From: Geoglobus acetivorans
GTDB lineage: Archaea; Halobacteriota; Archaeoglobi; Archaeoglobales; Archaeoglobaceae
Reading direction: 5' to 3'
Assembly: GCF_000789255.1 (NCBI RefSeq)
Contig: NZ_CP009552.1
Coordinates: 62,001-126,000 of the forward strand
Length of the DNA: 64,000 bases
Both the position numbers and the translations under genes were made by a program. Under the pieces are notes generated by a model. That model had not been told where the DNA came from and did no database searches. It saw nothing but the letters and a program-made list of their open reading frames with translations. This document shows positions 9,087 through 27,987 of the stretch, piece by piece. How positions within the stretch are numbered: the stretch's first letter is position 1; each line of letters starts with the position of its first letter.

Positions 9087-11363
9087 TTACTGTCCGTAGG
9101 TCTCTTCACTCCCCACCGTGACCGTTGGCTCCGGGTCAACGTACTTTCTTACGAGTATCCAGTCGTAGTGGGCGGGGGGATTATTTGCCTGTGTGCTCAA
9201 CCCAGGAAACTCTGGAGCAATTATGCCCACATAGTATGATCCGGATTTCGCATGGTTGTACAGGGCGTGGATGTATCCGTTGTAATACGCTATGCCTGCG
9301 ACCTGCCAGTTTGATGGATTCACAACATCGCCAATGGAAGATAATAGAGTTGCCTGCCGGTAATACGTAGGAGGTGCACTGTATTTAAGCAGGGTTTCCT
9401 CAGTACCGCTGATCCCCGTGCCATCGTAATGCGAGACCCTCATACTGGCGATATAGAACTCACCGCTGGCAGTTTTCATCAACGCACCGAGGGCATCGTC
9501 GTCTTCAGTGTATGCTCTGACCTCCACTGCGAAACTCTGTGGTAAATTCACATTGGCCGTCAGGAAGTAGTCAGCATTTGATGTGTCGGAGGTAACTTCA
9601 CTGTTCGCTGGATTCCATATGAATGTTGGATTGATACGAGACCAGCTCTCCCATACAGTATACAGGGAGCTCGAATCCGAATCAAAGTGGTCGAAGAAGA
9701 TGAACGTGGAACTTCCACTGCTTTCGGAATTTGTTGTGGGGTTTCCGTAGTACATGTAAATTGTAGTGGTGCTGCTCGCCGGAATGCTGGGCACCCTGAC
9801 CCAGATCTTCGCACTACTGCCGTAATTCCACTCCTCTATCCAGTAACTCAGTGGATTGCCGAGATCGTCAGTGAACCTTATGTCCGATCCATCGCTGTTC
9901 ACGTTACTCCAGTTGAATGAGGCGTTTAACGTGACGAGCACCTGGTAATCTGCCAGCGAATTGCCAGAATTCTCCCGGATTGTTATGGGGACGCGGTAAC
10001 TCCATCCGGGGAGCCAGAATGCCGTTACGTTTATCACATCCAGGCTGAGCACGTCTCCCGCATCACCGGCGAAGGCGTATATCTTTACGCTACCGTTTGA
10101 AAGTGCTGTGGCCTGCACATTAACGACTCCGTTGGTGTCTGTGAGTGCGGAGGTGGTGTTCAGTACAATGACCGAGGAATTTGTGACGGAAAATCTAACC
10201 TCCACACCCGGAACTGGTGAGGACTGGGAATCGACAACTCTTACGGACAGAGTCTTTTTAAGACCGTCTTTCCCGGCATCCCACACTCCACCGCTGTCAA
10301 GCCAGTTTACCTGCAGCAGTGAACTTGCATTCGTTCCCTGAGGCTGAATTACGGTTATGCTGTATGATGTGCTCAGACTTCCTGCTGAAAATATAACGCT
10401 TCCACTTCCAGCATTCTGGGCTTTGAACGACGTTCTCGCAACACCTGAAATATCGGTCTCTATGTTTGAAGGAACTGCATTTCCTATACCCCCGGAAACG
10501 GTTACGTTAACTTTCAAACCTGTTATTGGGTTCAGATAGTCATCCAGAAGTGCAGCACCAAGCTCCTGGATGTCTCCTGCAGACAGTGTGTATGAATCGA
10601 ATGGGTTGACTTTCAGCATGTACTTTGGACCTGGTTTGAACTCGTGGTCTGAGACAACGATAGTGGATAGAAATCCTGATGGAATGGTGGCCTTCACCTT
10701 GTTGCCCGAGACCGATAAACCCGCACTTGCCCAGTAGTCTGGATTTACGCTCTCAAATTCCACTGTGATGTTTTCTGCGTAGAATCTCCCACCCGAAGAG
10801 ACCGCTCTGAATGAGAACTCGTGGGGAGAATTGTATGCCCTGTTGATGCTCGAATTTACTATAACAAGATTGACCCCTCCGCTGAGCATTTTCTGGTCTC
10901 CCGCAATCCCTAATCCTCCGTTGCTTTTCTGAAATACAGCCGTATTTTCAAAGATGAAGGTTGTATCGGGATAGAAGTAGTTATCAATTTTCACGTATAT
11001 TCTGCTGGACTCATAGCTCTTTGAAAGTGTCAGTTTACTGCCATTTGGCAGCGTGATCTCGGCCGAGATGTTTACAGTAAATGGTTCCGTCCAGATTGAA
11101 AATCCTGCAGGTTCGGGTGTTAGCAGAAAGAGATAGTCGGGGTATTCCGGGGTTTTTACAAGCAGGAATGCATTATTTCCAGAGGATATGAGGGCTGAGA
11201 ATTTTTCCATTTCAGCCTTAACAGATTTCACATTGTCATACTCTATCTTTTTCAGCTGATCGGGAATCAGAGTGGTCTGAACAAAGGCAAGGAATATTAT
11301 CATTATCTGGAGCAGGAGTATGAATCCTATTATGGGTGAAACTCCACTGTTATCTCCAGACAC
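9087..11363 (-). CDS. Large pilin-like surface protein with Ig-like and DUF2341 domains
   Basis: This 758-residue protein begins SGDNSGVSPIIGFILLLQIM, like the N-termini of archaeal type IV pilin-type proteins, so cleavage near Gly7 by a prepilin peptidase is plausible. The hydrophobic helix is followed by beta-rich regions, two Ig/Big-like segments (about residues 250-345 and 346-445), a DUF2341 domain from about 455 (WSYRVPITI, IYMYYGNP), and a C-terminal lectin-like region. The start is GTG 11363, about 26 nt after GCTTTATATT, so probably leaderless. It is divergent from a pilus-type ATPase operon 84 bp away, suggesting a surface-displayed adhesin or minor pilin. Confidence 0.75.
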   Translation of the reverse strand: MSGDNSGVSPIIGFILLLQIMIIFLAFVQTTLIPDQLKKIEYDNVKSVKAEMEKFSALISSGNNAFLLVKTPEYPDYLFLLTPEPAGFSIWTEPFTVNISAEITLPNGSKLTLSKSYESSRIYVKIDNYFYPDTTFIFENTAVFQKSNGGLGIAGDQKMLSGGVNLVIVNSSINRAYNSPHEFSFRAVSSGGRFYAENITVEFESVNPDYWASAGLSVSGNKVKATIPSGFLSTIVVSDHEFKPGPKYMLKVNPFDSYTLSAGDIQELGAALLDDYLNPITGLKVNVTVSGGIGNAVPSNIETDISGVARTSFKAQNAGSGSVIFSAGSLSTSYSITVIQPQGTNASSLLQVNWLDSGGVWDAGKDGLKKTLSVRVVDSQSSPVPGVEVRFSVTNSSVIVLNTTSALTDTNGVVNVQATALSNGSVKIYAFAGDAGDVLSLDVINVTAFWLPGWSYRVPITIRENSGNSLADYQVLVTLNASFNWSNVNSDGSDIRFTDDLGNPLSYWIEEWNYGSSAKIWVRVPSIPASSTTTIYMYYGNPTTNSESSGSSTFIFFDHFDSDSSSLYTVWESWSRINPTFIWNPANSEVTSDTSNADYFLTANVNLPQSFAVEVRAYTEDDDALGALMKTASGEFYIASMRVSHYDGTGISGTEETLLKYSAPPTYYRQATLLSSIGDVVNPSNWQVAGIAYYNGYIHALYNHAKSGSYYVGIIAPEFPGLSTQANNPPAHYDWILVRKYVDPEPTVTVGSEETYGQ

Positions 11364-11447
11364 GTTTTCAATTCTGTCACTTCAATAATATAAAGCCTTC
11401 TAAAAATCGAGGAAAGATTTATTATTTTCTTGGAATAATTCATCTCG

Positions 11448-12986
11448 ATGCTCAACAATCCTTACTATCTCAGTATCAGAAACTTCATTGAGGATGCCGG
11501 AATGGAGCTTGTTGAGGGAGAAGATGTTCCCGAAGGTTATACTGTTGTTGATGAGTACTGGCTCATTGACAGGCTGGCTCTGGTCAGGATTCTTGAAAGT
11601 GTTGAGAGTTACAGAAAAAAATACTGGTTGATAGAACCCCAGATATCTGAAGATGAAGCAATGCTCCTTTATACCATCTATGAAGACGTGAGGCAGAGTT
11701 TCCTTTATCTTATGGGGGAAGATAACTTCGACAGACTTTTCAAAAGTTTGAAAAAGGTTCTTGGAGACTATGCGGTGAAAACGAAAGATGAGCTGTTTTA
11801 CAAGCTCCTTTACTATTTCGTTAGGGACTTTCTCGGACTCGGGATCGTTGAACCAATCCTGTTCGATGAAAATGTCGAGGATGTGAGCTGTGATGGATAT
11901 GGGGTTCCGATTTTCGTCTATCACCGAAAATACGGGAACATGTCTACCAACATAGTGCTTGAGAAGGATGTGCTCGACAACTACGTTCTTTTGCTCGCTC
12001 AGCGAGCCAACAAGCATCTCAGCTACTCCAGTCCAATCATTGATGCAACCCTCCCTGATGGGAGCAGGATCCAGATAACCTATGGCTCGGAAATCTCCAC
12101 ACGGGGAAGCACATTCACAATACGGAAGTTCAGAGAAGAACCCTTTACCCCAGTTGAGCTGATGGATTTTGGCACGATTTCTGCAAGAATGCTTGCATAC
12201 TTCTGGATTTTAATTGAGAACAAGAAGAACGTCATGGTCATTGGTGAGACTGCAAGCGGTAAGACCACAACGCTCAATGCTCTCCTTATGTTCATACCCC
12301 CTGACAGCAAAATTGTCTCCATAGAGGACACGAGGGAGATCCAGCTCTATCACGAAAACTGGATACCCGAGGTCACACGGCTGAGCATAGAGGGACAGGA
12401 AATCGATATGTATGATCTGTTGAGAGCAGCCCTAAGGCAGAGGCCTGAATACATAATTGTTGGTGAGGTGAGGGGTAAGGAAGCACAGACACTGTTTCAG
12501 GCAATGGCCACAGGTCATGCGGCCTACGCAACATTCCATGCCGGCGATGTGAACCAGCTCATCCACAGGCTTGAAGAAGACCCTCTAAATGTGCCGAGAG
12601 TCCTCATCCAGTATCTCGATGCCGTTGCGATTCAGGGCAGATGGGTTACGAAAACCGAGAAAAAGAGGAGAATTAAATCCGTGTACGAGATTCTTGGAAT
12701 TGAGCCAACAACAAAAGAACTTTTGCTGAATCCCGTTTACAGGTGGGAACCTCATGATGATCGGTTCATCGAGACATCTTCTTCCGCCAAACTTGAGTCG
12801 ATTTCGAGTTCAACGGGGCTATCCGTGTCTGAATTGCTTGAGGAGCTTGATAGGCGGACAAAGTTTCTGGAAATGCTGAGAGAAAAGGGGGTCAAGAGGT
12901 TTGGGGAGTTTGTAAAGTATGTTTCACTGTATAACGCAAATTCAGAGATCGCATTCGAGAAGCTCCAGGAAACGGAGGTATCCTGA
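11448..12986 (+). CDS. Type II/IV secretion system (pilus-type) ATPase
   Basis: This 512-residue GspE/TadA-type ATPase has an N-terminal domain, then the Walker A motif GETASGKTTT at about residues 266-275, an Asp box SIEDTREIQL, Walker B YIIVGEVRG at about 333-341, and a His-box region (GHAAYATFHAG). Such hexameric ATPases drive assembly of archaeal type IV pili or related fibres from the cytoplasmic side. It overlaps the platform gene by one base and is divergent from a pilin-like protein, so a dedicated pilus or adhesin system is likely. A TATA-like GATTTATTA lies about 30 nt before the ATG. Confidence 0.9.
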   Translation: MLNNPYYLSIRNFIEDAGMELVEGEDVPEGYTVVDEYWLIDRLALVRILESVESYRKKYWLIEPQISEDEAMLLYTIYEDVRQSFLYLMGEDNFDRLFKSLKKVLGDYAVKTKDELFYKLLYYFVRDFLGLGIVEPILFDENVEDVSCDGYGVPIFVYHRKYGNMSTNIVLEKDVLDNYVLLLAQRANKHLSYSSPIIDATLPDGSRIQITYGSEISTRGSTFTIRKFREEPFTPVELMDFGTISARMLAYFWILIENKKNVMVIGETASGKTTTLNALLMFIPPDSKIVSIEDTREIQLYHENWIPEVTRLSIEGQEIDMYDLLRAALRQRPEYIIVGEVRGKEAQTLFQAMATGHAAYATFHAGDVNQLIHRLEEDPLNVPRVLIQYLDAVAIQGRWVTKTEKKRRIKSVYEILGIEPTTKELLLNPVYRWEPHDDRFIETSSSAKLESISSSTGLSVSELLEELDRRTKFLEMLREKGVKRFGEFVKYVSLYNANSEIAFEKLQETEVS

Positions 12987-14929
12987 TGCCCTATACTCCT
13001 GCGTTTTTGAGGAGAATGTATGCCAGGAAATGGCTGAAAAACAGAAAGAGATATGCTGATATAGATAGGGCCATCAAAGCTTCCAGGTTAAATTTCACCG
13101 TGTATGAGTTTCTTGCAGCTGCTGCTTTTTACTCATGTCTGGTATTTGTACTCTCGTTCGTCTTTCTCAGTCTTGCCGTAAAGGTGTTTTTTGACGATGT
13201 TGCAAGATATGCAGTAAGCATTACCATGAATGAGCTGGTCAGGTTCCTGATGCCCACTGTGAAAAATGTTCCCCATTTCGGGATTGGAGATACGGTTTCG
13301 GAATACTCGCCCATAGTGAGGTATTATGCTGAAAAGTATTATTACATCGCCATGCTCATCCCCTCTTACCTGTTTTACAGACTTGCCAGATACTCCATTC
13401 TGTCCTATCCTTTCTTTCTGGCCAAAAGGAGAAAGGGCGAGATAGACCTGTATCTCCCACATGCTGTAAATATGATGTATGGAATGGCTGTGGGTGGTTT
13501 GAGTCCTGTAGAGGTTTTGAAGGAAGTCTCAAAGCTTCACTATCTCTTTGGGGAGGTCAGTGTTGAGCTGAAAGAGGTTATCAAGCATTTTGAGGTGTTC
13601 AGGAAGGATATTTTTTCGAGCATGAGGTATGTCAGAGACACCACACCCAGCAAAAAGCTTTCAGCGTTTTTGGATAGCCTGATAGTGGTGTTGCAGGGAG
13701 GAGGGAGCCTGGTGGATTATCTCAAGTCCAAGTCTGAAGAATATGAGGAGGAAAAGGACATCGCCTTTGATGAGGTCACGAGCTTTATGGAAATCCTGTT
13801 TGAGATCTACATTTCCATATTCATGATGTTTCCGTTGCTGCTGCTAATCGTACTTGTCGTTTCAAAATTCATCTCTCAGGACATAATGGATGGGTATGTT
13901 TACATGATTTATTTCCTGCTACCGGTTTCGGCAGTGTTCATAATCTATCTGGCGAAGTCAACTCTCCCGTTTACGGGGTCTTCCATTGTGGCGGTTAAGG
14001 ATGAGGGTCTGGCGGTGAATGTTTATGTTTATTCCAGGAAGGTGAGGAGGTTCAAAAGGAGCCTGGTGAAAAGGATTGTTAACAGAATTGTCAGATTTGC
14101 TCTGCACCCCTATACGACACCTATCGCATACATGGACTCAAAAATAGTGGCGGTGCATGTGCTCATTTATTCTGCTGCTGCATTCTACATTTTATGGAGC
14201 AGAAATTACATTGAACCTGAAAATTACGCAATACCCGCTTTTGCGCTTTTTTCCATACTTACTGTAATCTTTGAGATGAAGCACAGGGTGATTTCACGGG
14301 CTGAAGAAAGGCTGCCTGAATTCTTCAGCGAGATTGCGATGCTTAACGAGTCGGGTGTTTCGATTTTTGATGGGATAAGGCTGGTGTCCAGAGGAGGCAC
14401 CGACATACTTTCAAGGGAATTTGCCGACATAGGCAGGTACGTCGAGATCGGCCTCCCCGTCACGAGATCTTTTTCGAGACTGGCATATCGAATAAAAAGC
14501 GATATTTTTGCAAAGGCGATCCCCATAGCGGTAAAGACTCTCGAAACAAACTCCACAGTAAAGGATGCGTTTACAACGGTTTCCCGGTTTATTGAGTCTG
14601 AGATTCTATTCAGAAAAAGGTTGAAGTCCAGTCTCATGCCCTACCTTGCCATAGTTTACCTTTCTGTTGGAGTTTTCATCTTTGTAACCTATCTGCTCAT
14701 TTCCAAGTTTCTTGTCGTCTTCTCGGGAATGGACGTGGAGGTCATGGGTATGAAGGCGTCATTTGATGTTGAGATGATAAGACAGACTTTCATGAGGACT
14801 CTTTATCTCATTTCATTCCTTTCGGGGATCATTGCAGGGACGATATCTGAGATGAGGGTTACGGGAGGATTCAAACACGCCTTATTCCTGACCTTCATTA
14901 CCTATGTATCTTTCACGTATTTTGTATGA
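12986..14929 (+). CDS. Type II secretion F-domain (TadC/PilC-like) membrane platform protein
   Basis: This 647-residue membrane protein has two type II secretion F domains: the first around residues 155-255 (HAVNMMYGMAVGGLSPVEVL) and the second around 440-545 (FFSEIAMLNESGVSIFDGI), each followed by membrane helices. Archaeal platform proteins are often such tandem duplications. It would sit in the cytoplasmic membrane and work with the ATPase encoded immediately upstream, whose stop it overlaps (TGATG). No prepilin peptidase or further small pilin gene is seen in this window. Confidence 0.9.
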   Translation: MPYTPAFLRRMYARKWLKNRKRYADIDRAIKASRLNFTVYEFLAAAAFYSCLVFVLSFVFLSLAVKVFFDDVARYAVSITMNELVRFLMPTVKNVPHFGIGDTVSEYSPIVRYYAEKYYYIAMLIPSYLFYRLARYSILSYPFFLAKRRKGEIDLYLPHAVNMMYGMAVGGLSPVEVLKEVSKLHYLFGEVSVELKEVIKHFEVFRKDIFSSMRYVRDTTPSKKLSAFLDSLIVVLQGGGSLVDYLKSKSEEYEEEKDIAFDEVTSFMEILFEIYISIFMMFPLLLLIVLVVSKFISQDIMDGYVYMIYFLLPVSAVFIIYLAKSTLPFTGSSIVAVKDEGLAVNVYVYSRKVRRFKRSLVKRIVNRIVRFALHPYTTPIAYMDSKIVAVHVLIYSAAAFYILWSRNYIEPENYAIPAFALFSILTVIFEMKHRVISRAEERLPEFFSEIAMLNESGVSIFDGIRLVSRGGTDILSREFADIGRYVEIGLPVTRSFSRLAYRIKSDIFAKAIPIAVKTLETNSTVKDAFTTVSRFIESEILFRKRLKSSLMPYLAIVYLSVGVFIFVTYLLISKFLVVFSGMDVEVMGMKASFDVEMIRQTFMRTLYLISFLSGIIAGTISEMRVTGGFKHALFLTFITYVSFTYFV

Positions 14930-14972: not shown

Positions 14973-15746
14973 ATGGTACTGATTGAGCTTCTCGACGAAG
15001 CATTGAGTATGAGGTATTCCAGATTGCCTGAGATCGAGTCTGAAACATTTTCGGTAATAGGTGATATTCATGCCGACTCCAGAGCCCTGAAAATCCTGAC
15101 AGAGGATGCGTTCAGGCCCGTAGTCTTCTTAGGAGATTATGCTGACAGGGGTGATGAGCCGGTTGAGGTTTACAGGGCAATTCTCGAGGGTTATATCAGC
15201 GGGGATTACATTCTCCTCAGGGGAAATCATGAGTCTGAGAATGTAATACCTCATGATTTGCCTTGCAGGCTGGGGGAAGAGGAATGGGGAGAAGAGTTTT
15301 ACAGAAAACTTCTGAAATTCTGGAAAACGCTCCCCTGCTGCTGCATAATAAATGGTGAGATTTTTGCAGTGCATGGTGGAATCTACACAAAGGGCTGCAG
15401 GATTGTTGGTGAGGGTATAAAACGTTCGGAATTAATGCGGGATGATGCTGAGATTGAGCTGATGTGGAATGACCCCTGGGAAAACAATGAATGTGCGCGG
15501 AATTTTGAGAGGGGAATCGGTTACAGATTTGGGGCTAAAGCCACCGGCAGATTCCTCGAGGATCTCGGTCTGAAAGTTGTGGTGAGGAGTCATGAACCCT
15601 ACAAGGTTCTGAAGGTTGAACATAATGGTATGGTTGTCACCATCGGGTCGACTGGGGTATATGGCACGAGAATAGCGAGACTTAATGTTTGTGGAAAATT
15701 CAGAGATGGATACGATTTATGTCAAAATTTTGGAGAAATTTTTTAG
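14973..15746 (+). CDS. PPP-family serine/threonine phosphatase (metallophosphoesterase)
   Basis: This protein of about 257 residues has the PPP signatures GDIHAD, GDYADRGD and LRGNHESEN in order, then a late His motif (VHGG and RSHEPY) completing the two-metal site. It would dephosphorylate proteins or small phosphoesters in the cytoplasm. The ATG at 14973 (MVLIELLDEALSMRY) is preferred because the upstream alternative at 14943 adds a short hydrophobic stretch uncommon in this family. It follows the pilus platform gene by 43 bp on the same strand, which could link it to control of the pilus, though that is speculative. Confidence 0.85.
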   Translation: MVLIELLDEALSMRYSRLPEIESETFSVIGDIHADSRALKILTEDAFRPVVFLGDYADRGDEPVEVYRAILEGYISGDYILLRGNHESENVIPHDLPCRLGEEEWGEEFYRKLLKFWKTLPCCCIINGEIFAVHGGIYTKGCRIVGEGIKRSELMRDDAEIELMWNDPWENNECARNFERGIGYRFGAKATGRFLEDLGLKVVVRSHEPYKVLKVEHNGMVVTIGSTGVYGTRIARLNVCGKFRDGYDLCQNFGEIF

Positions 15747-15970
15747 CTTTTTGTCCTGTAGCTGGTGTATACTCTCAGGAGGCCGTTTATTGCGAGGAGC
15801 GCAGCGACGAGTCCTGCAATTACGTGCACCCCACCTTCGTATGCCGGGATGGCACCTGAGCTGAGGACCCATAGCCACATGAATGCCAGCTGAAGACCTC
15901 CTACCACAAGTCCTGCAAATACCAGCATTATGAATATCGTTTTCAGGTCAAAGGTCTCAAAGAGCTTCAT
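15743..15970 (-). CDS. Small two-helix membrane protein
   Basis: This 75-residue protein has two hydrophobic helices (about residues 12-36 and 44-66) flanked by charged ends; a conserved-looking GGVHVIAG lies between them. I do not recognise the family. It follows the 12-haem cytochrome gene on the same strand with a 43 bp gap, so it may be an accessory membrane subunit of the same redox system. It overlaps the phosphatase gene tail to tail by 4 bp. Confidence 0.6.
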   Translation of the reverse strand: MKLFETFDLKTIFIMLVFAGLVVGGLQLAFMWLWVLSSGAIPAYEGGVHVIAGLVAALLAINGLLRVYTSYRTKS

Positions 15971-16013
15971 ATGTCAAAAAAGTTGAAAAGAGTATTTAAA
16001 AATTTTTCCACTT

Positions 16014-16871
16014 TTATTTGTGACAGGTTGTGCATTTGAGTGTGGGGTAGTGGTCTTTCCTGTCTGTGTGGCATGTTTCGCAGACTGTCCTGACATCTAT
16101 GTTCTTGTGGGGCACGTGGCAGGACTTGCAGTCCTTGTCTGCGTGGTACTTGTGGATTGGCTTGTTTGGCAGGCTGTGGCAGGTCTGGCATGAGAACGGC
16201 TCTGCAGTTATATGCGGCTGGTGGCAGTTGCTGCACTCGCTCTCTGAATGGGCACCTTCTGGCAGTGCGAGGATAATGTCTCTATCCTTGTGGCACTTCT
16301 TGCAGTCCTGAGACGTTGGAAGGATGTTCTCTCCGTTTGTCTTCACATCGGCTAAGAAGTTGTGGCAGTTGGTGCAGTGGAAGTCCATCTGCGGAACTTT
16401 CATGGATATGTCGCTGTGGCACTTCTTGCACTCCGAGTTATCCGGCACGAATTTGTGGACTCTTCCACCATGGCAGTCTATACAGTTGGCCTTGGCGTTT
16501 TCCAGATGATATTTGTGTCCTGCAGTATCTGCAACGTATGGCCATTTCTCTGATTTCTGGAAGTGGCAATTTTCGCATTTTTCATTGGGTATCACTACGT
16601 GGACATCGTCTGAAACCTCTTCTGGCTGGAGGGTGAAGTATGTTACGAGCAGTCTCATGTTGTCCTGTATGCTTGCCTCATGGCACTCGTGGCACGTTAT
16701 TCCCTGGTGCGGGCTCTGGTTCCATTTGTTCCATGCCTCTTCCATCAGGTGGCAGGTTTTGCAGAATCTTGGATCCTTTTCGATGAACATGAACGTGTTG
16801 TAGCCTTCGGCAGCCACTATTATGCCCGCTACTATCAGGAAAAGGAGTAGCATTGCAGCCCTTCGTTCCAT
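16014..16871 (-). CDS. Dodecahaem c-type cytochrome, N-terminally anchored
   Basis: This 285-residue protein contains 12 CxxCH haem-binding motifs (from CKTCH at about residue 37 to CTTCH at the C-terminus) and one N-terminal hydrophobic helix (residues 5-25), placing it outside the membrane and probably anchored as in NapC/NrfH-type proteins. Haem density is high, about one per 22 residues after the helix. It would pass electrons from the quinone-linked complex encoded upstream (17035-19475) to an extracytoplasmic acceptor or reductase. Which acceptor is not shown by the sequence. A TATA-like AATTTTTATTAA lies upstream. Confidence 0.85.
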   Translation of the reverse strand: MERRAAMLLLFLIVAGIIVAAEGYNTFMFIEKDPRFCKTCHLMEEAWNKWNQSPHQGITCHECHEASIQDNMRLLVTYFTLQPEEVSDDVHVVIPNEKCENCHFQKSEKWPYVADTAGHKYHLENAKANCIDCHGGRVHKFVPDNSECKKCHSDISMKVPQMDFHCTNCHNFLADVKTNGENILPTSQDCKKCHKDRDIILALPEGAHSESECSNCHQPHITAEPFSCQTCHSLPNKPIHKYHADKDCKSCHVPHKNIDVRTVCETCHTDRKDHYPTLKCTTCHK

Positions 16872-17034
16872 GGCTTTCCCACTTTCCCAGTTAATAAAAA
16901 TTTTGCGTATTGTACCTCAAATGCAAAAGAAAATAAAGTTCATTAGTGGATTTTCTCAAAGTTTCAAAAACCGCAAATCTTAATGATTTAATGCTTTGAA
17001 TTGCTGAAGCATTCCCAGAAAAATAAAAAGGTAA

Positions 17035-18237
17035 TTACTCGGTTTCTGTTTTCTCCCACTCGTGCGGGTGTTCCCACGGGGGCAGCAGCTTGATCAGCAC
17101 CGCCAGTATTATGAACGGCAGTATCCAGATGGCCAAGGCGAGTGAGAGGCTTTCTGGGCCGAACAGCGGCATTATGTATGTTGTGTATCCGAGGTACGTC
17201 TTTGATATCAGCTGACCGCCTATCACCACGTTCCATCTCATTGCGAAAACGCCGATGAGTGTCAGGGTGGTGACGAATATGTATATCCACTTTCTGACGT
17301 TGAACCTGAATATGCCTGTCCTGGCAAGAATCAGCAGGAATATCGGTACGAGGGTGCCAAGGAAGACCTGAATCACAATGAATGTCCAGAACAGTTTATC
17401 TGTTATCAGCACTCTTATTGCATCTATGCCCTCCTCCTGGGTGTAGAACAGGTGAGCAAGCTCCATGAACTCTAAGGAGAGGTCCAGCAGATATGCGTAG
17501 AGCAGATAATTGGCGAGCGTATCAGTACAGGCTCTGTCAAGCTCAACTCCTCTTATGTAGCTGCTGGCTATGTATATCAGCAGGACGAGTGCAATTCCGG
17601 AGACCATCGCTGAGAACAGGAAGATGATTGGCATCAGAGGTGAACTCCACCAGTGATTCGCCTTAACGCTTCCGAATATGAATCCAACGTAACCGTGCAG
17701 GAACGCAGCCGATGGGAGACCGATAACAGTAACGATGTTCACGATTTTGTTGTCTGCTTTGACGGCCTCATCGCTTATGTTGTAGTCTCCGAGGGTGAGT
17801 ATCTTGTATATGAATCCCTTAATTCCGCCAACTTCCTGGGACCACATTACAATGTCCCTTCTGTAGTCGAAGTAAAGCTCTATCAGCAGCACAGCCATCA
17901 GGTACCAGGCATAGACGAAACCGAAACCTGCCATTGCTGACGATAGGTGCGGAGTCATCATTATCTCAAGAGCCCTTTCAGGATGTCCCAGATGCGCGAC
18001 CAGCGGCAGTGGAGCGCATAGCAGGAAGGCGAGAGCCGTTAACAGTGCAAGCCTGTAGGTGGGCTTCACAGCCTCGACTTTGAATATTCTTTCAAGAGAT
18101 GCGACAATAAAGGCTCCAGCCACGAGACCGGTTATGTAGGGATAGAGGGCAATGAGAACACTCCAGTTAACCTCGACTTCGTTGGGATAGATGTATCCCT
18201 GAACGTGCTGGAGAATCTGCCAGAGAATTTCGCTCAC
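17035..18237 (-). CDS. NrfD-type quinone-interacting integral membrane subunit
   Basis: This 400-residue protein has about ten membrane helices and the NrfD/PsrC/HmcC-like pattern, including PLPLVAHLGHPERALEIMM, where the conserved region faces the quinone site. Proteins of this family exchange electrons between the menaquinone pool and a partner FeS subunit. The GTG start at 18237 follows GGAGGTGAG and overlaps nothing; it is two bases after the FeS gene, so the two are co-translated. Its partners are the ferredoxin-like and cytochrome subunits upstream, forming a CISM-type complex (Nrf/Hmc/Qrc-like). Confidence 0.9.
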   Translation of the reverse strand: MSEILWQILQHVQGYIYPNEVEVNWSVLIALYPYITGLVAGAFIVASLERIFKVEAVKPTYRLALLTALAFLLCAPLPLVAHLGHPERALEIMMTPHLSSAMAGFGFVYAWYLMAVLLIELYFDYRRDIVMWSQEVGGIKGFIYKILTLGDYNISDEAVKADNKIVNIVTVIGLPSAAFLHGYVGFIFGSVKANHWWSSPLMPIIFLFSAMVSGIALVLLIYIASSYIRGVELDRACTDTLANYLLYAYLLDLSLEFMELAHLFYTQEEGIDAIRVLITDKLFWTFIVIQVFLGTLVPIFLLILARTGIFRFNVRKWIYIFVTTLTLIGVFAMRWNVVIGGQLISKTYLGYTTYIMPLFGPESLSLALAIWILPFIILAVLIKLLPPWEHPHEWEKTETE

Positions 18238-18238
18238 T

Positions 18239-19000
18239 TCATCTCACCTCCGAGTCAAGCTCAATATAGTAAACCTGGGGTAACGTTCCCATATCGGGCT
18301 TAAGCACCTGAACTCTCCTTTCTTCTATGATCTTTCTGACTTCGTCTTCCGGATCCATCAGGTCACCGAATTTTCGCGCTCCAACAGGGCACACTTCAAC
18401 GCATGCGGGTTTGTAGCCCCTTGTAATTCTGTGGTAGCACCATGTGCATTTATCAGCGGTGTTTCTCCTGGTCTCTCTCGGACCATCGGCTGGATAGAGA
18501 TATCTTGCTCCATACGGACATGCCTGGATGCAATACCTGCATCCAATGCAGTATTTCTCATCCACAAGAACGACACCGTCTTTCGTCTTGTATGTTGCAC
18601 CAACTGGACAGACCTGAACGCATGGGGGTCTGTCACAGTGATTGCAGAGCTTTGGGACGTAGTAGGATTTCGATATCATTCTCTCGTCGTATGTGGGAGG
18701 GAATCCATCAAATCCACCGTTTGGAGAATCCACCTTGGGACCCTCTTCATCTTTAAGCCATACCCATCTTTCCACCCATGTCCTGAAGTAAAATGGCTTC
18801 ATTGGAACTTCATTCTCAATCTTGCAGGCCCTCACGCACCTTCCGCACCCAATGCATCTCGTTGTATCGACGACAAATGCATACTTGTGCCTGTTCCAGT
18901 CATAGCCTTCAACCGGCTCCTGAGCTGCCACTCTTCTCTTAAAGCTGGCAAATCCAGCGACAGCAGCTATCACGGCCAGGAACTTTCTTCTACTGACCAT
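18239..19000 (-). CDS. Tat-exported 4Fe-4S ferredoxin subunit (DsrO/HmcB/NrfC-like)
   Basis: This 253-residue protein starts MVSRRKFLAVIAAVAGFASF, a twin-arginine-type signal, and carries four cysteine clusters typical of a four-cubane polyferredoxin: CIGCGRCVRAC, CNHCDRPPCVQVCP, CIGCRYCIQACP and CTWCYHRI...CVEVCP. The start at 19000 is chosen because it is preceded by GAGGTG and gives the signal peptide; a longer frame from 19126 would read through the cytochrome gene. It would wire the NrfD-type membrane subunit to the cytochromes on the outer face. Confidence 0.9.
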   Translation of the reverse strand: MVSRRKFLAVIAAVAGFASFKRRVAAQEPVEGYDWNRHKYAFVVDTTRCIGCGRCVRACKIENEVPMKPFYFRTWVERWVWLKDEEGPKVDSPNGGFDGFPPTYDERMISKSYYVPKLCNHCDRPPCVQVCPVGATYKTKDGVVLVDEKYCIGCRYCIQACPYGARYLYPADGPRETRRNTADKCTWCYHRITRGYKPACVEVCPVGARKFGDLMDPEDEVRKIIEERRVQVLKPDMGTLPQVYYIELDSEVR

Positions 19001-19475
19001 TGTCAACACCTCTCTTGAACACCCACGGTGAGTGAGGGTTGTGGCACTCAACACAGGCAAACCCGTAACCGTGGTCGTCAGTGAACTTCTGAGGAAAGTC
19101 TTCAGGCCTTGTGGGGTTGAACTCATGGCAGAGCTTGCACAGCTCTCTTGTGGTATCTATCTCTGGGTGATATGTGGTGGGATTTTCTACGTGCTTCATG
19201 CTTGGTCCATGACATGTCTCACAGCTCAGGGTCGAATGTTTGCCCCGGTTCAGAAATTCAACCTTTTCTGGATGACACTGTTCGCACATTTCTTTCGTGG
19301 CGAATTTCATGTCATACTGCATAATTTCTCGGACTGAATCCCCTCTAAACCATCTGTAGGTGTAGTCGTCTGTAAATTCCCCGAATGTGGGGGGGACGAT
19401 AACGGTTCTCAGCATTAAAAATACTAAGACGAATGTCAGGTATATCAGCAAAAATCTCCTCGTCGCTGCCCGCAT
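18990..19475 (-). CDS. Tetrahaem c-type cytochrome, N-terminally anchored
   Basis: This 161-residue protein has an N-terminal membrane helix (LLIYLTFVLVFLMLRTVIV) and four CxxCH motifs: CEQCH, CETCH, CKLCH and CVECH, with spaced histidines as distal ligands (HGPSMKH, HNPH). It is the first gene of a three-gene operon with the FeS and NrfD subunits, overlapping the FeS gene by 11 bp. The ATG at 19475 is preceded by GAGGTG, and a TATA-like AATTTTTAAAG lies further upstream. It probably forms the electron exit or entry of the complex. Confidence 0.88.
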   Translation of the reverse strand: MRAATRRFLLIYLTFVLVFLMLRTVIVPPTFGEFTDDYTYRWFRGDSVREIMQYDMKFATKEMCEQCHPEKVEFLNRGKHSTLSCETCHGPSMKHVENPTTYHPEIDTTRELCKLCHEFNPTRPEDFPQKFTDDHGYGFACVECHNPHSPWVFKRGVDNGQ

Positions 19476-19633: not shown

Positions 19634-19945
19634 TTAAAGTCCAAGACCTCTTGCGATAGCCTGAAAAACGTCGTTTGTTATGTTGATTCCGTTCATCTCT
19701 AGAATTATGTTAAGCACGGCTCCGATTACCGCACCCACGATAAGGGAGGATATTATCCTGATTTTGATTATCAGAATTAGTGCTATCACCAGCAGAACGA
19801 GGGTGGAAACTGCACCAATCTGAGCCAGCTGCTGTGCGGTCTCTTCCATGGCCATGTTCATGAAATTGAAAAGGGTCGCTATTCCGGACATGCCGAAAAG
19901 AAGACCTATTATCAGCCCGATGGCAACAAACGTGTTATCCGCCAT
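19634..19945 (-). CDS. Small membrane protein of unknown function
   Basis: This 103-residue protein has three hydrophobic segments (about residues 7-31, 43-62 and 66-85) and a short polar C-terminus. I recognise no family; size and helix pattern resemble small channel-like or holin-like archaeal proteins but without a diagnostic motif. A TATA element (GATTATATG on the minus strand, centred near 19971) lies about 26 nt before the ATG, suggesting a leaderless transcript. It is not obviously part of the neighbouring cytochrome operon, which has its own promoter. Confidence 0.6.
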   Translation of the reverse strand: MADNTFVAIGLIIGLLFGMSGIATLFNFMNMAMEETAQQLAQIGAVSTLVLLVIALILIIKIRIISSLIVGAVIGAVLNIILEMNGINITNDVFQAIARGLGL

Positions 19946-22167: not shown

Positions 22168-22934
22168 GGGTGGCTTTCAAGTATGCCTATTTTGGCTGGG
22201 ATTATTATGGAAACCAGTTTCAGCCACACCTCAGAACAGTTGATGGTGAAATTTTCAGGGCATTTGAAAAGCTCGGCATCAATGCCAGGGAAAGGAGGTA
22301 CAGGATTGCGGGAAGGACCGATGCGGGCGTCAGCGCGTTTGGCAACGTTTTTGCAGTCAATCTCGACTCTTTTGAGCCGTGGTTTTTGAGAGTCCTCAAT
22401 TCGAATTTACCCGATGACATTTCGGTATGGGCATACTGCATTGTTGATGAGGATTTCAACCCGAGGAAAGCTCTTTCAAGGGTTTACAGGTATGTTCTGC
22501 CAGATGAGGGATTTGATGTTGGAGCGATGAAAAATGCGGCACAGATGCTGCTGGGAAAGCACGACTTTTCTGGCTTTGCAAAAGCCTGCAAGCCATGTGT
22601 CAGGGAGATCCTGCGTTCGGAAATTGAAAAGAGGGGAGATTTTATTATCTATACTGTTGAGGGCAACGCATTCGCCTGGAACATGGTGAGGAAGATCGTA
22701 ACTGCCCTGAAAATTGCGGGAATGAGGAGTGATACGGAAATAGTTGAACTGGTTCTTTCAGGGGAAAACATACCTCTGACTCCCGCAAGCCCGTACGGGC
22801 TGATACTCCTTGATGTGAAGTACCCTTTCGAGTTTAAAAAGGATGAAAAAATTTACGGGCTGCTGCAGGAGAGAATTCAGGAAAGGATGAAAAAATTTGC
22901 ACAGCTTTACGGTATTTTCAGGTTTTTGAGGTAA
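22161..22934 (+). CDS. truA: tRNA pseudouridine synthase A
   Basis: This 257-residue protein is a TruA-family pseudouridine synthase. It starts with FKYAYFGWDYYGNQFQP, has the catalytic Asp in RIAGRTDAGVSAFGNV, and later GKHDFSGFAKA and FAWNMVRKIV. It would isomerise uridines at positions 38-40 of the tRNA anticodon arm. It overlaps the upstream gene by 7 bp and the cobA gene tail to tail by 28 bp. Confidence 0.95.
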   Translation: MLRVAFKYAYFGWDYYGNQFQPHLRTVDGEIFRAFEKLGINARERRYRIAGRTDAGVSAFGNVFAVNLDSFEPWFLRVLNSNLPDDISVWAYCIVDEDFNPRKALSRVYRYVLPDEGFDVGAMKNAAQMLLGKHDFSGFAKACKPCVREILRSEIEKRGDFIIYTVEGNAFAWNMVRKIVTALKIAGMRSDTEIVELVLSGENIPLTPASPYGLILLDVKYPFEFKKDEKIYGLLQERIQERMKKFAQLYGIFRFLR

Positions 22935-23656
22935 TCCTTCACTTTTTCGGATACCTCTGTCACTCCCCCGATTACTATCACTGCCGGAGCCTTCACATTT
23001 TCTCTCTCTGCAATCTCTGCGATGCTGGATAGCCTGCCCCTCACAATTCTCTGTTTCTCTGTGGTTCCATTTTCGATTATTGCAACAAGAGTGTTCGGGT
23101 CTTTACCGTGGTTCAGAAGTTTTTCGACGTTTTCCCTGAGGTTGGATACTCCCATGAGTATCACGATAGTTGCGTTAAGCCTTGCAAGTGCCTCCCAGTC
23201 AAGCCTCTCTCTTTCCTGCTTACCCGTTATGAACACCAGTGCGGGGTCATATTTCCTGTGAGTTACAGGTATGCCTGCATAGGCCGGAACGGCTATTGCT
23301 GAAGTGATTCCTGGCACAACTTCAAACTCTATCCCGTGTTCTGCAAGAACCTCTATTTCTTCTCCACCTCTGCCAAAGACGAAGGGATCACCGCCCTTGA
23401 GCCTTACAACTCTGTCATATTCTTTTCCATACTTCACAAGCAGTTCGTTTATCTCGTCCTGCTTTTTCTTGTGTTTTCCGGCCCTTTTTCCCACATCAAT
23501 CAGGATTGCTCTGCTCTCTCTTTTAATCAGCTCTTTTATGTCTTCGCCAATGAGTTCGTCGTAAAGAATGACATCAGCTTCTCTTATCAATCTCAAAGCT
23601 TTGAGGGTCAGCAGTTCAGGGTCTCCCGGACCTGAGCCAACGATATATACTGTCAA
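22907..23656 (-). CDS. cobA: Uroporphyrinogen-III C-methyltransferase (SUMT)
   Basis: This 249-residue enzyme starts TVYIVGSGPGDPELLTLKAL and contains VRLKGGDPFVFGRGGEE, both characteristic of SAM-dependent uroporphyrinogen-III methyltransferase. It makes precorrin-2, the precursor of sirohaem, cobalamin, and the archaeal alternative haem route. It is the last gene of the hemA-hemB-hemL-hemC-cobA operon and overlaps hemC by 4 bp. Uroporphyrinogen-III synthase (hemD) and precorrin-2 dehydrogenase are not in this window. Confidence 0.95.
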   Translation of the reverse strand: MTVYIVGSGPGDPELLTLKALRLIREADVILYDELIGEDIKELIKRESRAILIDVGKRAGKHKKKQDEINELLVKYGKEYDRVVRLKGGDPFVFGRGGEEIEVLAEHGIEFEVVPGITSAIAVPAYAGIPVTHRKYDPALVFITGKQERERLDWEALARLNATIVILMGVSNLRENVEKLLNHGKDPNTLVAIIENGTTEKQRIVRGRLSSIAEIAERENVKAPAVIVIGGVTEVSEKVKDYLKNLKIP

Positions 23657-24528
23657 GGTATCACTTCCCTGAGAACTTCTCTAACATCGCTCTGCGAGTA
23701 ATCTCTATCCAGTTTTTCGTCAATTCTGGCAACAACTTCTCCGTTTTCTTTGAGGATCTCGCACACGAGTCTTATTCTCCTGCCGTCACTTTCTGCATAG
23801 ACTCCAGCCGGAATTGCACATCCTATCCCCAGTTCGCTGATCACAGCCCTCTCGAGCATAGCCTCTCTGTATGTTTTTTCGTGATTCATAAAGCTGACAA
23901 TCTCTTTTTCATTCTCCCTCGTGGCTATGGCGATTATCCCCTGATTGGCTGATGGCACGAATATCTGGGGGTCGAGCCGCTGATAGTTCAGCTTTTTGTC
24001 CCACCCGAGCCTGATCAGTCCCGCTTCGGCAAGAAAAATTCCATCATACATTCCCTCAGTCAGTTTTCTCAACCTCGTGTCAACGTTTCCTCTGAGATTC
24101 TCTATCTTCAGGTCCCTCCTCAATTTCAGAACCATCGCCCTTCTTCTCAGCGATGATGTACCGATTATGGATCCGCTCTCAACTTCCTCGAATCTCTTTT
24201 CTTCCCTGGTTATGAAGGCATCGCATGGCGACTCTCTTTCAAGAACTGCGGCAATCACCGTCCCCTCTACCCTTTCAGTTGGAACGTCCTTGAGACTGTG
24301 GACGGCAATATCCACCTCGCCCCTTTTCAGTGCGAGATCAATCTCTCTTACAAATGCTCCGATTCCTTTGAATTCATGCAGGGGTCTGTCTTTCTTAATG
24401 TCTCCAGATGTCCTGATTATTTTAAGCTCTGTTTCGAATCCTTCCTCTTCCAGTATTTCCTTTACCTTTTCCGCCTGTGCCAGGGCAAGTTTGCTGCCTC
24501 TTGTGCCGATTACAATGCTCTCAGGCAT
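23653..24528 (-). CDS. hemC: Hydroxymethylbilane synthase (porphobilinogen deaminase)
   Basis: This 291-residue protein begins VIGTRGSKLALAQAEKVKEI and contains VHSLKDVPT and the dipyrromethane-cofactor cysteine in ELGIGCAIPAG. It polymerises four porphobilinogen molecules to hydroxymethylbilane. It overlaps hemL by 19 bp upstream and cobA by 4 bp downstream, indicating a tightly coupled operon. Confidence 0.95.
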   Translation of the reverse strand: MPESIVIGTRGSKLALAQAEKVKEILEEEGFETELKIIRTSGDIKKDRPLHEFKGIGAFVREIDLALKRGEVDIAVHSLKDVPTERVEGTVIAAVLERESPCDAFITREEKRFEEVESGSIIGTSSLRRRAMVLKLRRDLKIENLRGNVDTRLRKLTEGMYDGIFLAEAGLIRLGWDKKLNYQRLDPQIFVPSANQGIIAIATRENEKEIVSFMNHEKTYREAMLERAVISELGIGCAIPAGVYAESDGRRIRLVCEILKENGEVVARIDEKLDRDYSQSDVREVLREVIP

Positions 24529-25778
24529 TTCACAATCACTTCTGCCGTTTTTTCCACGTCTTCCGGTTCATGAGCCACGCTCATAAAGCACGTCTCGTAC
24601 TGGGATGGAGGGAAGAACACTCCGTTTTCAAGCAGTTTCCAGTAGAACTCCATGAACTTTTCGTTGTCCAGTTTCAGAGCTGATGAATAGTCTCGGGGTT
24701 TTTCTCCGAAGTAAATGCAGAACATTGATTCAATTGAGCCAATGCTTACATTGAGTTTCGCATCATGAATCTCATCTTTCAGCGCTTTCACCAGATTTTC
24801 GGTCTTTTTCCTGAGCTCATCATACGGTTTTTCCTCCTCAAGGATTCTTGCTGTGGTGTATCCTGCCGTGAGGCTTATCGGATTTCCGCTGAATGTTCCA
24901 GCCTGGTAAACTGGCCCGGAAGGACTGAATTTCTCCAGTATCTCTTTTCTTCCTCCGACGATACCTATCGGGAACCCTCCACCGGCAATTTTTCCGAGAG
25001 TGGTTATGTCCGGCTCAACGCCAAAATACTCCTGGGCACCGCCGAGCGAAAGCCTGAATCCTGTTATGACCTCATCAAAGATGAGCAGAACGTCGTTCTC
25101 CATGGTGATTTTCCTGATTTCCCTCAGGTAACCGTCGTCTGGAATTATCAGTGAAGCGTTGCCCATCACCGGCTCGAGAATCAGGGCAGCGATATCTTCT
25201 CTGTTCTTCTCAATAACCTCCGAAAGAGCTTCAACATTATTGTAAGGGGCCTGAAGCGTATTTATCACAAACTCTTCAGGAACTCCCGCCGAGTTTGGTG
25301 TTCCGTGTGTTGTGGCTCCGCTGCCTGCCTTGACAAGCACGGAATCATGGGCACCATGGAAACTTCCTTCAATTTTTATGAACTTCTTTTTACCCGTGAA
25401 CCCTTTGGCAAGCCTGAGTGCCGCCATAGTCGCCTCGCTGCCGGTGTTTGTGAACCTGACCATGTCTATTGATGGGTAGATGTCGGTTATGAGTTTTGCA
25501 TATTCGATTTCCAGCTCTATGGGCGTCCCGTAAACCCAGCCATCTTCAAGCCTGTCTTTAACCGCGTTCTTAACTCTTTCATTTCCGTGGCCAAGAATTA
25601 ATGGCCCATACGCCATGCAGTAGTCTATGTATTCGTTTCCATCGACATCGTATATCTTTGAACCCTTCGCCTTTTTCGTGTAAAACGGGAACGGCTTTAC
25701 GGCTCTAACCGGACTTGAGACCCCTCCAGGCATCAGACTCCTGGCGGTTTCATAAAGCTCCTTTGATTTCCCCCACAT
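24510..25778 (-). CDS. hemL: Glutamate-1-semialdehyde 2,1-aminomutase
   Basis: This 422-residue PLP enzyme has PGGVSSPVRAVKPFPFYTKK at the N-terminus, VRFTNTGSEATMAALRLA, and the PLP lysine in TLGKIAGGGFPIG. It converts glutamate-1-semialdehyde to 5-aminolevulinate in the C5 route that begins with HemA, two genes upstream. It starts immediately after the hemB stop codon. Confidence 0.96.
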   Translation of the reverse strand: MWGKSKELYETARSLMPGGVSSPVRAVKPFPFYTKKAKGSKIYDVDGNEYIDYCMAYGPLILGHGNERVKNAVKDRLEDGWVYGTPIELEIEYAKLITDIYPSIDMVRFTNTGSEATMAALRLAKGFTGKKKFIKIEGSFHGAHDSVLVKAGSGATTHGTPNSAGVPEEFVINTLQAPYNNVEALSEVIEKNREDIAALILEPVMGNASLIIPDDGYLREIRKITMENDVLLIFDEVITGFRLSLGGAQEYFGVEPDITTLGKIAGGGFPIGIVGGRKEILEKFSPSGPVYQAGTFSGNPISLTAGYTTARILEEEKPYDELRKKTENLVKALKDEIHDAKLNVSIGSIESMFCIYFGEKPRDYSSALKLDNEKFMEFYWKLLENGVFFPPSQYETCFMSVAHEPEDVEKTAEVIVKCLRAL

Positions 25779-26744
25779 TCACAAAACCTCCGCAATTTCC
25801 TTTGCATGATAGGTGATTATCAGATCAGCACCCGCCCTTTTTATTGAAGTGAGTATTTCATAGGCTATGCTCATCTCATCGAGCCATCCCATTCTGCCAG
25901 CAGCCTTGACCATGCTGTATTCCCCGCTAACATTATAGGCTGCAACGGGAACCTTGAACTCCTCTTTGACCCTCCGTATGATATCCAGGTAGCTGAGTGC
26001 GGGCTTGACCATGACTATGTCAGCCCCCTCTCTCAAATCGAGTTCGACCTCTCTCAACGCCTCATTGCTGTTGTGGAAGTCCATCTGGTAGCTTTTCCTG
26101 TCTCCAAAGGCATATCCGCTTTCAGCAGCCTCTCTAAATGGTCCGTAGAATGATGATGCATATTTGGCAGAGTAGCTCATTATTGCGGTATTTTCAAATC
26201 CGCTCTCGTCAAGAGCACTCCTTATGGCTTTTATCATTCCGTCCATCATTCCGGAGGGAGCAACGATGTCTGCCCCGGCTCTGGCATGGCTCACAGCAAC
26301 TTTTCCAAGAACTGGCAGGGTTGGATCATTCAGAACTTCTTCATTCTGGACAATACCGCAATGCCCGTGAGTGGTGTACTCGCACAGGCAGACGTCTGTT
26401 ATCAGCACCGCATCATCAAAGTCCTGCCTGGCGTTTCTCAAAGCCTTCTGTATCACACCATCATCGTCGTATGCGGAACTTCCAATTTCGTCCTTGCTGG
26501 CAGGTATGCCAAAGAAGATAAATGCTCTTACACCCAGCTCCATTGCCTTTCCAATCTCGTCAGATATGCTGTGAAGGGGGATCCTGAAGTATCCGGGCAT
26601 TGAGGGAATTTCCTGCCTTGATGAAATGTTCTCATCAACAAAGATGGGCATTATCAGGTCTTCCTTAGACAGCTTCGTTTCCTGCATTAGGGGACGAATT
26701 CTGTTCTTTCTCAATCTTCTCATTCTTACCTTTGGAAATTCCAT
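25779..26744 (-). CDS. hemB: Delta-aminolevulinic acid dehydratase (porphobilinogen synthase)
   Basis: This 321-residue enzyme has the zinc-binding cysteines in [14 protein letters not shown] and the Schiff-base lysines in [13 protein letters not shown] and [13 protein letters not shown]. It condenses two 5-aminolevulinate molecules to porphobilinogen. The ATG at 26744 is preceded by GGAGGTG at a suitable distance, which decides it against a longer frame from 26798. This start lies 80 bp inside hemA, so the two coding regions overlap in different frames. Confidence 0.95.
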
Positions 26745-27987
26745 CCTTAACACCTCCGAATAAAAACTCCACAGCATCCACCACTTCCGGTTTTCCATTA
26801 CGTGCGGCCTGTCTCAGTCTGACAGTTGGCTTCCTTAGGAATTTTTTAATGAGTGAGTTTGCAAAGCTTTCGAGCAGGGGCAGCACTTCTTCATCAACGC
26901 CATATTTTGCGTGAAGTTTGTTGTAAAGCTCTATAATCTCCTCGTTTTTTATGTAATCTGCGTGGGAATACATCATGCAGATGGCATTTCTTGCTTTTAA
27001 CTCCTTCAACCTTTCGATGAGGTCTTCAAGCTCCTCTTTTATTATTTTTTCAGCTTTTTCTGCTTCTTTCAATCTTCTCCTCAGATTCTCTCTGCTGATC
27101 TCCCGGAGGTCATCTATCGTGTGGAGGAGGACGCCTTCAACCTCTGCCACTTCCGGTTCCACGTCTCTTGGCAGGGCTATATCGACAAGAAGAACTGCCT
27201 CTTTTCTGATCTCCATGATTTTTTCCATCATGCTTTTTGTTATGACGTAGTGGGGGGCGGAGGTGGCTGAGATCACAAAGTCACATTCAGTGATGTATTT
27301 CTCGACCTTGTCAAACGGTACAGCAATTGCCTTTTCGCCAACCTCCTGAGCGAGAGCTCTGCCTCTCTGGAGAGTTCTGTTTGCTATGTATATTTTATCG
27401 AGATTCTTGTGTGCTATTGCCTTTGCAACGAGCTTACCCATCTCTCCAGCCCCAATAATCAACGCCTTTTTTCCAGCGAGGGTCCCCAGCCTTCTTTCGG
27501 CAAGCTCAACAGCCGCACTCCCGATGCTTACAGCGCCTTTGTTTATCTTTGTCCGGTTCCTGACTTTTTTGCCCACCTGAATTGCCTTGGAGAAAACCAG
27601 GTCAAGGACTTCACCGATGCTTCCGTATTCCTTTCCCATGCTGTAGAAATCTTTAACCTGTCCGAGAATCTGATCCTCTCCAACCATCATCGACTCGAGA
27701 CCCGACGCAACTCTCAGGATGTGTTCAAGGGTCTCTCCATTTTTGTGGATCTCGATGATCCTTTCAGGAACACCCATCGACCTGGCAAACTTTCTGAGGG
27801 TTTCTATGGTGCCGGACCCGTAAACGTAAACCTCGACTCTGTTGCAGGTGAGGAGGATGGCACATTCTCTTATGTTCGAGAAGGACATCACCCTGTCGAG
27901 TAGCGTTTTATAATCGCCATGCCAGGCTTTTTGAATCTGATCGATTGAAGCTTTTTTGTGAGATATCACAAGGTTGGCTATTTCCAT
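26665..27987 (-). CDS. hemA: Glutamyl-tRNA reductase
   Basis: This 440-residue protein has the catalytic Cys in [14 protein letters not shown], the [14 protein letters not shown] region, a NADP-binding [14 protein letters not shown], and a C-terminal dimerisation helix. It reduces glutamyl-tRNA to glutamate-1-semialdehyde and commits carbon to tetrapyrroles. It is the first gene of the operon. Its last 26 or so residues ([14 protein letters not shown] and following) are charged, look unstructured, and are encoded over the hemB start region. Confidence 0.95.

Follow-up and report, generated by a model that had tools for sequence, protein, structure and literature searches.

Five successive genes on the minus strand, running from position 19475 to position 15743 of a 64,000-nucleotide stretch of the Geoglobus acetivorans genome (contig NZ_CP009552.1, positions 62,001 to 126,000; the whole stretch is called the window here), probably encode a menaquinol:cytochrome c oxidoreductase together with its own outgoing haem wire, by which electrons would finally reach Fe(III) oxide. 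The products are a tetrahaem cytochrome, an iron-sulfur (FeS) protein predicted to be exported by twin-arginine translocation (Tat), an NrfD-type membrane subunit, a 12-haem cytochrome, and a small membrane protein (Table 1), and they most likely assemble in the membrane into a machine moving electrons from the quinone pool through up to sixteen haems towards minerals of iron outside the cell. Fe(III) has been described as the sole electron acceptor of Geoglobus species (PMC8280799), and the route by which quinol electrons reach minerals in archaea lacking an outer membrane is a standing question.

Archaeoglobales hold three paralogous NrfD clusters, which we designate clades A (the window cluster), B, and C. 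The 12-haem protein was found in 9 of 57 genomes of this order, and these were the identical nine genomes that carry NrfD clade A, even where the two genes are unlinked; among 392 genomes drawn from the phylum, it was found in 9. For clade C, 7 of the 10 genomes having either protein had both, and for clade B, 3 of 12. The Fisher value for co-occurrence with clade A (1e-10) takes no account of kinship and should not be treated as a probability. The 12-haem and clade A genes are adjacent in Geoglobus and in genome G055, where they are convergent; in G023 a long distance separates them, and in G024 and G031 they lie on different contigs. Because the 12-haem unit moves independently in this way, it is regarded as separate from the core of tetrahaem, FeS, and NrfD genes. 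The G. acetivorans genome, a single contig of 1,860,815 bases, contains two NrfD proteins, of clades A and C only, and two NapC-type proteins, and the NrfD/NapC pairs sit in two clusters. The bc-type cytochrome b family PF13631 gave no hits in this genome (VhtC-type cytochrome b was not searched for), and the MqnA family of menaquinone synthesis was present. With two NrfD proteins, two NapC-type proteins, and no PF13631 member, the two NrfD/NapC clusters are therefore the evident exits from quinol to c-type haem.

The NrfD subunit was modeled with AlphaFold2 (predicted local distance difference test [pLDDT], 82.5). The best structural match of the model was ActC of alternative complex III (Z, 33-35; root mean square deviation [rmsd], 3.2-3.4; 365-366 residues), with 6lod_C at the top (Z, 35.0; rmsd, 3.2; 366 aligned residues) and identities among the ActC matches of 14-19%; PsrC with bound menaquinone was matched as well (Z, 21.2; rmsd, 3.3; 248 aligned residues). 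Since ActC and PsrC are both quinone-site subunits, the predicted fold counts for a quinone link, and NrfD would be the quinol-oxidising subunit of the complex. Subunits of bd-type oxidases, 8-11% identical and with Z values reaching 22.4, ranked between ActC and PsrC, and this likeness was set aside as a shared helix arrangement only. DsrP, QrcD, and HmcC were absent from the list of structure matches, which excludes nothing. The initial annotation had called the module quinone-linked, and family (PF03916), fold (ActC and PsrC), and context agree in supporting this.

The 12-haem cytochrome contains 12 CXXCH motifs, compared with a mean of 0.17 and a maximum of 4 in 20,000 shuffles of its sequence. 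All 12 haem motifs were invariant in 9 of 9 orthologues, as were Met43 (which follows haem 1 in the motif CXXCHXM) and each of the 13 remaining histidines, and thus every haem can be six-coordinate, which argues for a relay and not for an open catalytic site. The protein matched the NapC/NirT family PF03264 (37.4 bits; cut-off, 24.1) and PF14522 (52.2 bits); when the whole frame was compared with the NapC profile, the score was 46.6 bits and the second half of the profile was included. The NrfH structure 2j7a_C was also matched (E, 6.4e-9), the first matching stretch being the N-terminal helix with haems 1 and 2. A NapC/NrfH-like helix followed by haems 1 and 2 would root the wire in the membrane beside the core. 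The 75-amino-acid protein encoded downstream, for which searches of Pfam and NCBIfam gave no match, is present in 8 of the 9 genomes with the 12-haem protein (it is missing in G055) and is a candidate small subunit or partner of that protein.

In the mechanism that we propose, NrfD would oxidise menaquinol within the membrane, and the electrons would reach the tetrahaem cytochrome, itself anchored in the membrane, by way of the four clusters in the Tat-exported FeS subunit. From there they would pass to the 12-haem protein, anchored in the same membrane by its NapC-type helix, and its haem chain would carry them outward, across the space beneath the S-layer, to other multihaem cytochromes and at last to Fe(III) oxide. 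We infer this direction of flow, the order from tetrahaem to 12-haem protein, the final acceptor, and contact among the five proteins. Several points weigh against the proposal. The AlphaFold2 model of the 12-haem protein, made with 9 orthologues, was discarded (pLDDT, 42.4; predicted template modeling score, 0.19), which leaves the shape of the wire and its haem spacing presumptive. In G031, the 12-haem gene adjoins the clade C cluster and not clade A, and the 12-haem protein may therefore serve both clades. The nine genomes are related, and their agreement does not amount to nine independent cases. Finally, the likeness to the Geobacter Cbc4 complex, taken up below, is one of gene make-up and order. 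A wider notion, which we put forward as speculative and do not expect to hold, is that the quinol exit of iron-respiring archaea is a repeating two-part unit, consisting of a bacterial-type quinol oxidase of tetrahaem cytochrome, FeS protein, and NrfD and a polyhaem wire with a NapC-type head (12 haems in the window, 10 in the other cluster of this genome, and 12 in two mcrA-bearing relatives); if the head of the wire were itself able to oxidise quinol, electrons could enter the one conduit at two points that differ in potential.

The NapC-like features raise the alternative that the 12-haem protein operates independently of the NrfD complex, as a quinol dehydrogenase of the CymA/NrfH type to which a wire has been fused. 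The scores against the NapC/NirT family, the NrfH match over the helix and haems 1 and 2 with its CXXCHXM motif, and a gene that forms a unit of its own and is unlinked in three genomes would all suit such an enzyme, but the restriction of the protein to exactly the 9 of 57 genomes that carry the NrfD clade would not. Moreover, in NapC-family proteins we take the residue at the quinol site to be a lysine, and inspection of the nine orthologues by eye showed nothing conserved that corresponds to it between haems 2 and 3; we consider this alternative unlikely. We are slightly more doubtful that the 12-haem protein is a terminal Fe(III)-oxide reductase at the surface, the role proposed for its Geoglobus ahangari orthologue, GAH_00286 (39.1 kDa), on the strength of a size match to surface haem proteins required for oxide reduction (PMC4600277). 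Size matching is weak either way, all 12 haems can be six-coordinate, and the NapC-type N-terminal helix looks uncleaved, with no conserved cleavage site seen by eye in the alignments. Neither the 12-haem nor the tetrahaem protein contained an MtrC/OmcA-type oxide-binding motif, which we take to be S/T-hydrophobic-P-S/T, although this is a weak test. The initial annotation had allowed for either a terminal or a wire-like carrier, to metals or to another cell. The conserved haems and ligands and the co-occurrence with the NrfD clade favor the wire-like part; a terminal metal reductase or a cell-to-cell contact is less well supported, the protein having a NapC-type root in the cytoplasmic membrane and lacking an MtrC/OmcA-type motif.

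Within the core, the tetrahaem protein has 4 CXXCH motifs (mean, 0.02, and maximum, 2, in 20,000 shuffles); His80, His95, His135, and His148 were nearly invariant in its alignment (A4, one empty row included), and its orthologues adjoin NrfC/NrfD genes in relatives. The FeS protein is best read from a start at 19000 (MVSRRKFL, containing the twin-arginine motif) and not from the mechanical start at 19126. All 16 of its cysteines (positions 49, 52, 55, 59, 119, 122, 127, 131, 151, 154, 157, 161, 185, 188, 200, and 204), together with Arg4 and Arg5, were invariant in 10 of 10 aligned relatives. Against the curated cut-offs of NCBIfam, the FeS protein narrowly passed as DsrO (204.8 of 200 bits) and fell below NrfC (154.8 of 377.6) and HmcB (114.4 of 420). 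Automatic annotation may therefore name it DsrO, even though the neighbouring NrfD is far from DsrP (39.3 of 350 bits). NrfD also fell below the cut-off of the NrfD model itself (58.2 of 347.6), as did the 12-haem protein below that of HmcA (13.9 of 400). Apart from the 5-bit pass as DsrO, the curated cut-offs support the view that the module is not of the Nrf, Hmc, or Qrc kind, the limits of those models being missed widely.

NrfD complexes are known to operate in both directions, and the core could in principle run in reverse as a Qrc-like quinone reductase or electron uptake system, reducing the menaquinone pool with electrons supplied by cytochromes outside. The QrcD model was weakly matched by 8 of 34 NrfD relatives, but the window proteins lay far below the Qrc cut-offs (QrcC, 115.4 of 400; QrcA, 17.3 of 180), and since obligate Fe(III) reducers require an electron exit, we regard this direction as highly improbable. 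That the cluster is a remnant or relative of Dsr, Nrf, or Hmc complexes for sulfur or nitrogen acceptors we find scarcely credible, because, beyond the DsrO pass and the low-scoring NrfD and DsrP matches, the cut-offs given above were missed and the cluster proteins include no DsrMKJ-like or reductase gene.

The genes of the core overlap or abut, with 11 bases shared by the tetrahaem and FeS genes and 1 base between the FeS and NrfD genes, and motifs and Pfam matches identify each product, in keeping with the grouping first proposed for them. The presence of a 12-haem anchored cytochrome (12 CXXCH motifs and an N-terminal helix) and of a small protein with two predicted helices was likewise upheld; these two genes are spaced by 43 bases. 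The gap between the NrfD and 12-haem genes varies in length among Geoglobus genomes and includes, by eye, an AT-rich TATA-like stretch 20-33 bases 5' of the 12-haem ATG; a sigma-70 promoter scan addresses bacterial sites and does not apply to this archaeal window. Hence, of the earlier proposal of a separate promoter, the independence of the unit is supported by its unlinked position in three genomes, and a promoter of its own for the 12-haem gene is plausible. No catalytic reductase gene was found among the cluster proteins, as had been stated with NrfA as the example; for the genome as a whole, NrfA was not searched for.

Table 1. Features of the haem cluster in the window (minus strand, in order of transcription)
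Feature	Position in window	Strand	Remarks
Tetrahaem c-type cytochrome, 161 amino acids	18990..19475	-	4 CXXCH; Pfam c-type haem families; single N-terminal transmembrane anchor; CbcS-like operon position
Tat-exported FeS protein, 253 amino acids, NrfC/CbcT/DsrO-like	18239..19000	-	Four predicted [4Fe-4S] sites; Fer4_11, 88.7 bits
NrfD-type membrane subunit, 400 amino acids	17035..18237	-	GTG start; PF03916, 129 bits (cut-off, 25.8)
Intergenic gap, NrfD to 12-haem gene, 163 bases	16872..17034	-	Candidate archaeal TATA-like stretch at about 16891-16904
12-haem cytochrome, 285 amino acids	16014..16871	-	12 CXXCH; NapC/NrfH-type head with haems 1 and 2, then c7/c3-like haems
Small protein, 75 amino acids	15743..15970	-	Two predicted membrane helices (simple hydropathy count); no family match

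The wider affinities of the core were examined through relatives of its NrfD, of which 560 were obtained and the best 80 kept, 76 of them bacterial. Within these best 80, relatives 53-61% identical to the window NrfD were abundant in Acidobacteriota, Bacteroidota, and Ignavibacteriota, and are nearer to it than is the other NrfD encoded in the same genome (39%). Upstream of NrfD in the 76 bacterial loci, both a tetrahaem-like cytochrome and an FeS gene were present in 68, the cytochrome only in 6, the FeS gene only in 1, and neither in 1; the upstream cytochromes had 4 CXXCH motifs in 61 loci, 8 in 10, 3 in 2, and 2 in 1. A tree of 98 NrfD rows was built by quick search with Shimodaira-Hasegawa-like approximate likelihood ratio support only, a length filter having removed 4 of the 76 bacterial rows. 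Clade A (9 rows) formed one side of a branch (support, 90) and joined 5 of the 6 clade B rows (support, 99); with mcrA-bearing archaea, it was placed among bacterial groups, and clade C stood apart. Locus L044 and the three mcrA-bearing rows were flagged as a possible long-branch join. The tree suggests that NrfD has been exchanged between domains; the bacterial set, drawn from the best 80 of 560, does not show in which direction. A plasmid search for NrfD relatives returned 5 haloarchaeal records at 28-31% identity, which were of no use. In two bacterial loci, L094 and L125, the core occurs in an 8-haem form, and after it come apparent Rieske and cytochrome b genes and additional multihaem cytochromes; L100, L123, and L129 resemble this arrangement in their gene lengths.

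The other two archaeal clades differ in their partners. Upstream in clade B lies an 8-haem partner of about 520 amino acids, and clade C has a small protein of 3-4 helices upstream and a 10-haem NapC-type cytochrome downstream (11 haems in G027). The clade C cytochrome bears a zinc-ribbon-like stretch at its N terminus; in the 10-haem proteins of L050 (6417-7466) and L047 (7696-8730), this stretch, CPFC...CEVC, precedes the membrane helix and would therefore be cytoplasmic. One of these loci is the second cluster of the G. acetivorans genome (G000:C1, 1112417-1116346; L050), and its tetrahaem-type cytochrome, of 228 amino acids, has 8 CXXCH motifs compared with 4 in the six other clade C clusters fetched.

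Several neighbouring genes were also recorded. A protein of 103 amino acids with three helices (19634-19945) is encoded directly upstream of the tetrahaem gene; it is kept in the five core-bearing Geoglobus loci and was not found in the other loci fetched. A relationship to the small membrane protein upstream in clade C was considered and rejected (no match at an E threshold of 0.05). On the other side, genes for an archaeal type IV pilin-like protein, a secretion-type ATPase (T2SSE), and a membrane platform (T2SSF) adjoin the haem cluster (9087-14929), and the ATPase and platform genes lie near the core in the window, in four other Geoglobus genomes, and in Ferroglobus G023; appendages for attachment may be encoded jointly with the electron exit. 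Near the cytochrome cluster, positions 22907-26798 hold haem/sirohaem synthesis genes that read, on inspection, as CobA-, HemC-, HemL-, and HemB-like, and their synteny was partly seen in L031 and L033.

The orthologous proteins of G. ahangari are in print as separate items. GAH_00283 (4 haems) and GAH_00286 (12 haems) are listed in a table for that organism (PMC4600277), and GAH_00286 was proposed by size match as one of four outer-surface terminal carriers (PMC4600277), a view repeated in a review (PMC8280799). The main text of the former paper does not contain the name NrfD and, in the part consulted, does not join GAH_00283-00286 into one complex (PMC4600277). In G026, of the same genus, the gene order is that of the window cluster. 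GAH_01256, a decahaem NapC-type protein of G. ahangari, has been discussed as CymA-like (PMC8280799, PMC13104607), and haem number and family make it a candidate clade C member. What the present analysis adds is the connection to NrfD, the shared occurrence, the conserved ligands, and the reading of the protein as rooted in the membrane; we make no claim that this connection is missing from the literature. The published picture of the 12-haem protein, a surface carrier standing alone, should be broadened to an NrfD-linked module. The core itself is ordinary; its place is an important one, and its haem partner is unusually long. Since the evident candidates in this genome are reduced to two NrfD/NapC clusters, the question of how quinol electrons reach minerals becomes testable, each cluster being a small operon for which both the quinol subunit and the haem wire can be named.

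The cluster resembles several known systems in part. The NrfD model shares the fold of ActC with alternative complex III, but the other large Act subunits are not among the five cluster genes; alternative complex III further comprises the large ActB and ActD-F. With NapC, NirT, and NrfH, the 12-haem protein shares the N-terminal helix, the head with haems 1 and 2, and CXXCHXM, yet it has 12 haems instead of 4 and is at most an extended relative. Three mcrA-bearing genomes of the same phylum, perhaps Methanoperedenaceae, carry cytochrome, NrfC, and NrfD genes, with NrfD 48-50% identical to that of the window, and two of them (G335 and G341) have a neighbouring 12-haem protein. Orthology of the latter to the window protein was rejected, and because of their 28% identity and shifted haem spacing they are treated as analogues. 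The mcrA-bearing genomes apart, clusters of NrfD, FeS protein, and multihaem cytochromes in metal-reducing Methanoperedenaceae have been called menaquinone:cytochrome c oxidoreductases (PMC7327174), and one was highly expressed during Mn(IV) reduction (PMC7082337); the window cluster is like them in these three components. The methanophenazine:cytochrome c oxidoreductase of anaerobic methanotrophic archaea (Mco) was set aside, its membrane subunit being a VhtC-type cytochrome b (PMC9012536). Geobacter Cbc4 (CbcSTU) has been assigned as a menaquinol:ferricytochrome c oxidoreductase (PMC11434368, PMC10989804) in which a tetrahaem cytochrome, a 4Fe-4S protein, and an NrfD/b-type membrane subunit are encoded in one operon of Fe(III) reducers. 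No Geobacter locus was among the best 80 of 560 NrfD relatives, and no Cbc model was among the NCBIfam matches listed. The Cbc4 order of adjacent tetrahaem, FeS, and NrfD genes recurs in the window and in archaeal and bacterial relatives, and, compared with Cbc4, the window core is archaeal and is paired with a NapC-headed 12-haem protein. The core of three genes probably represents an NrfD-containing type of menaquinol:cytochrome c oxidoreductase that is widespread and occurs mainly in bacteria.

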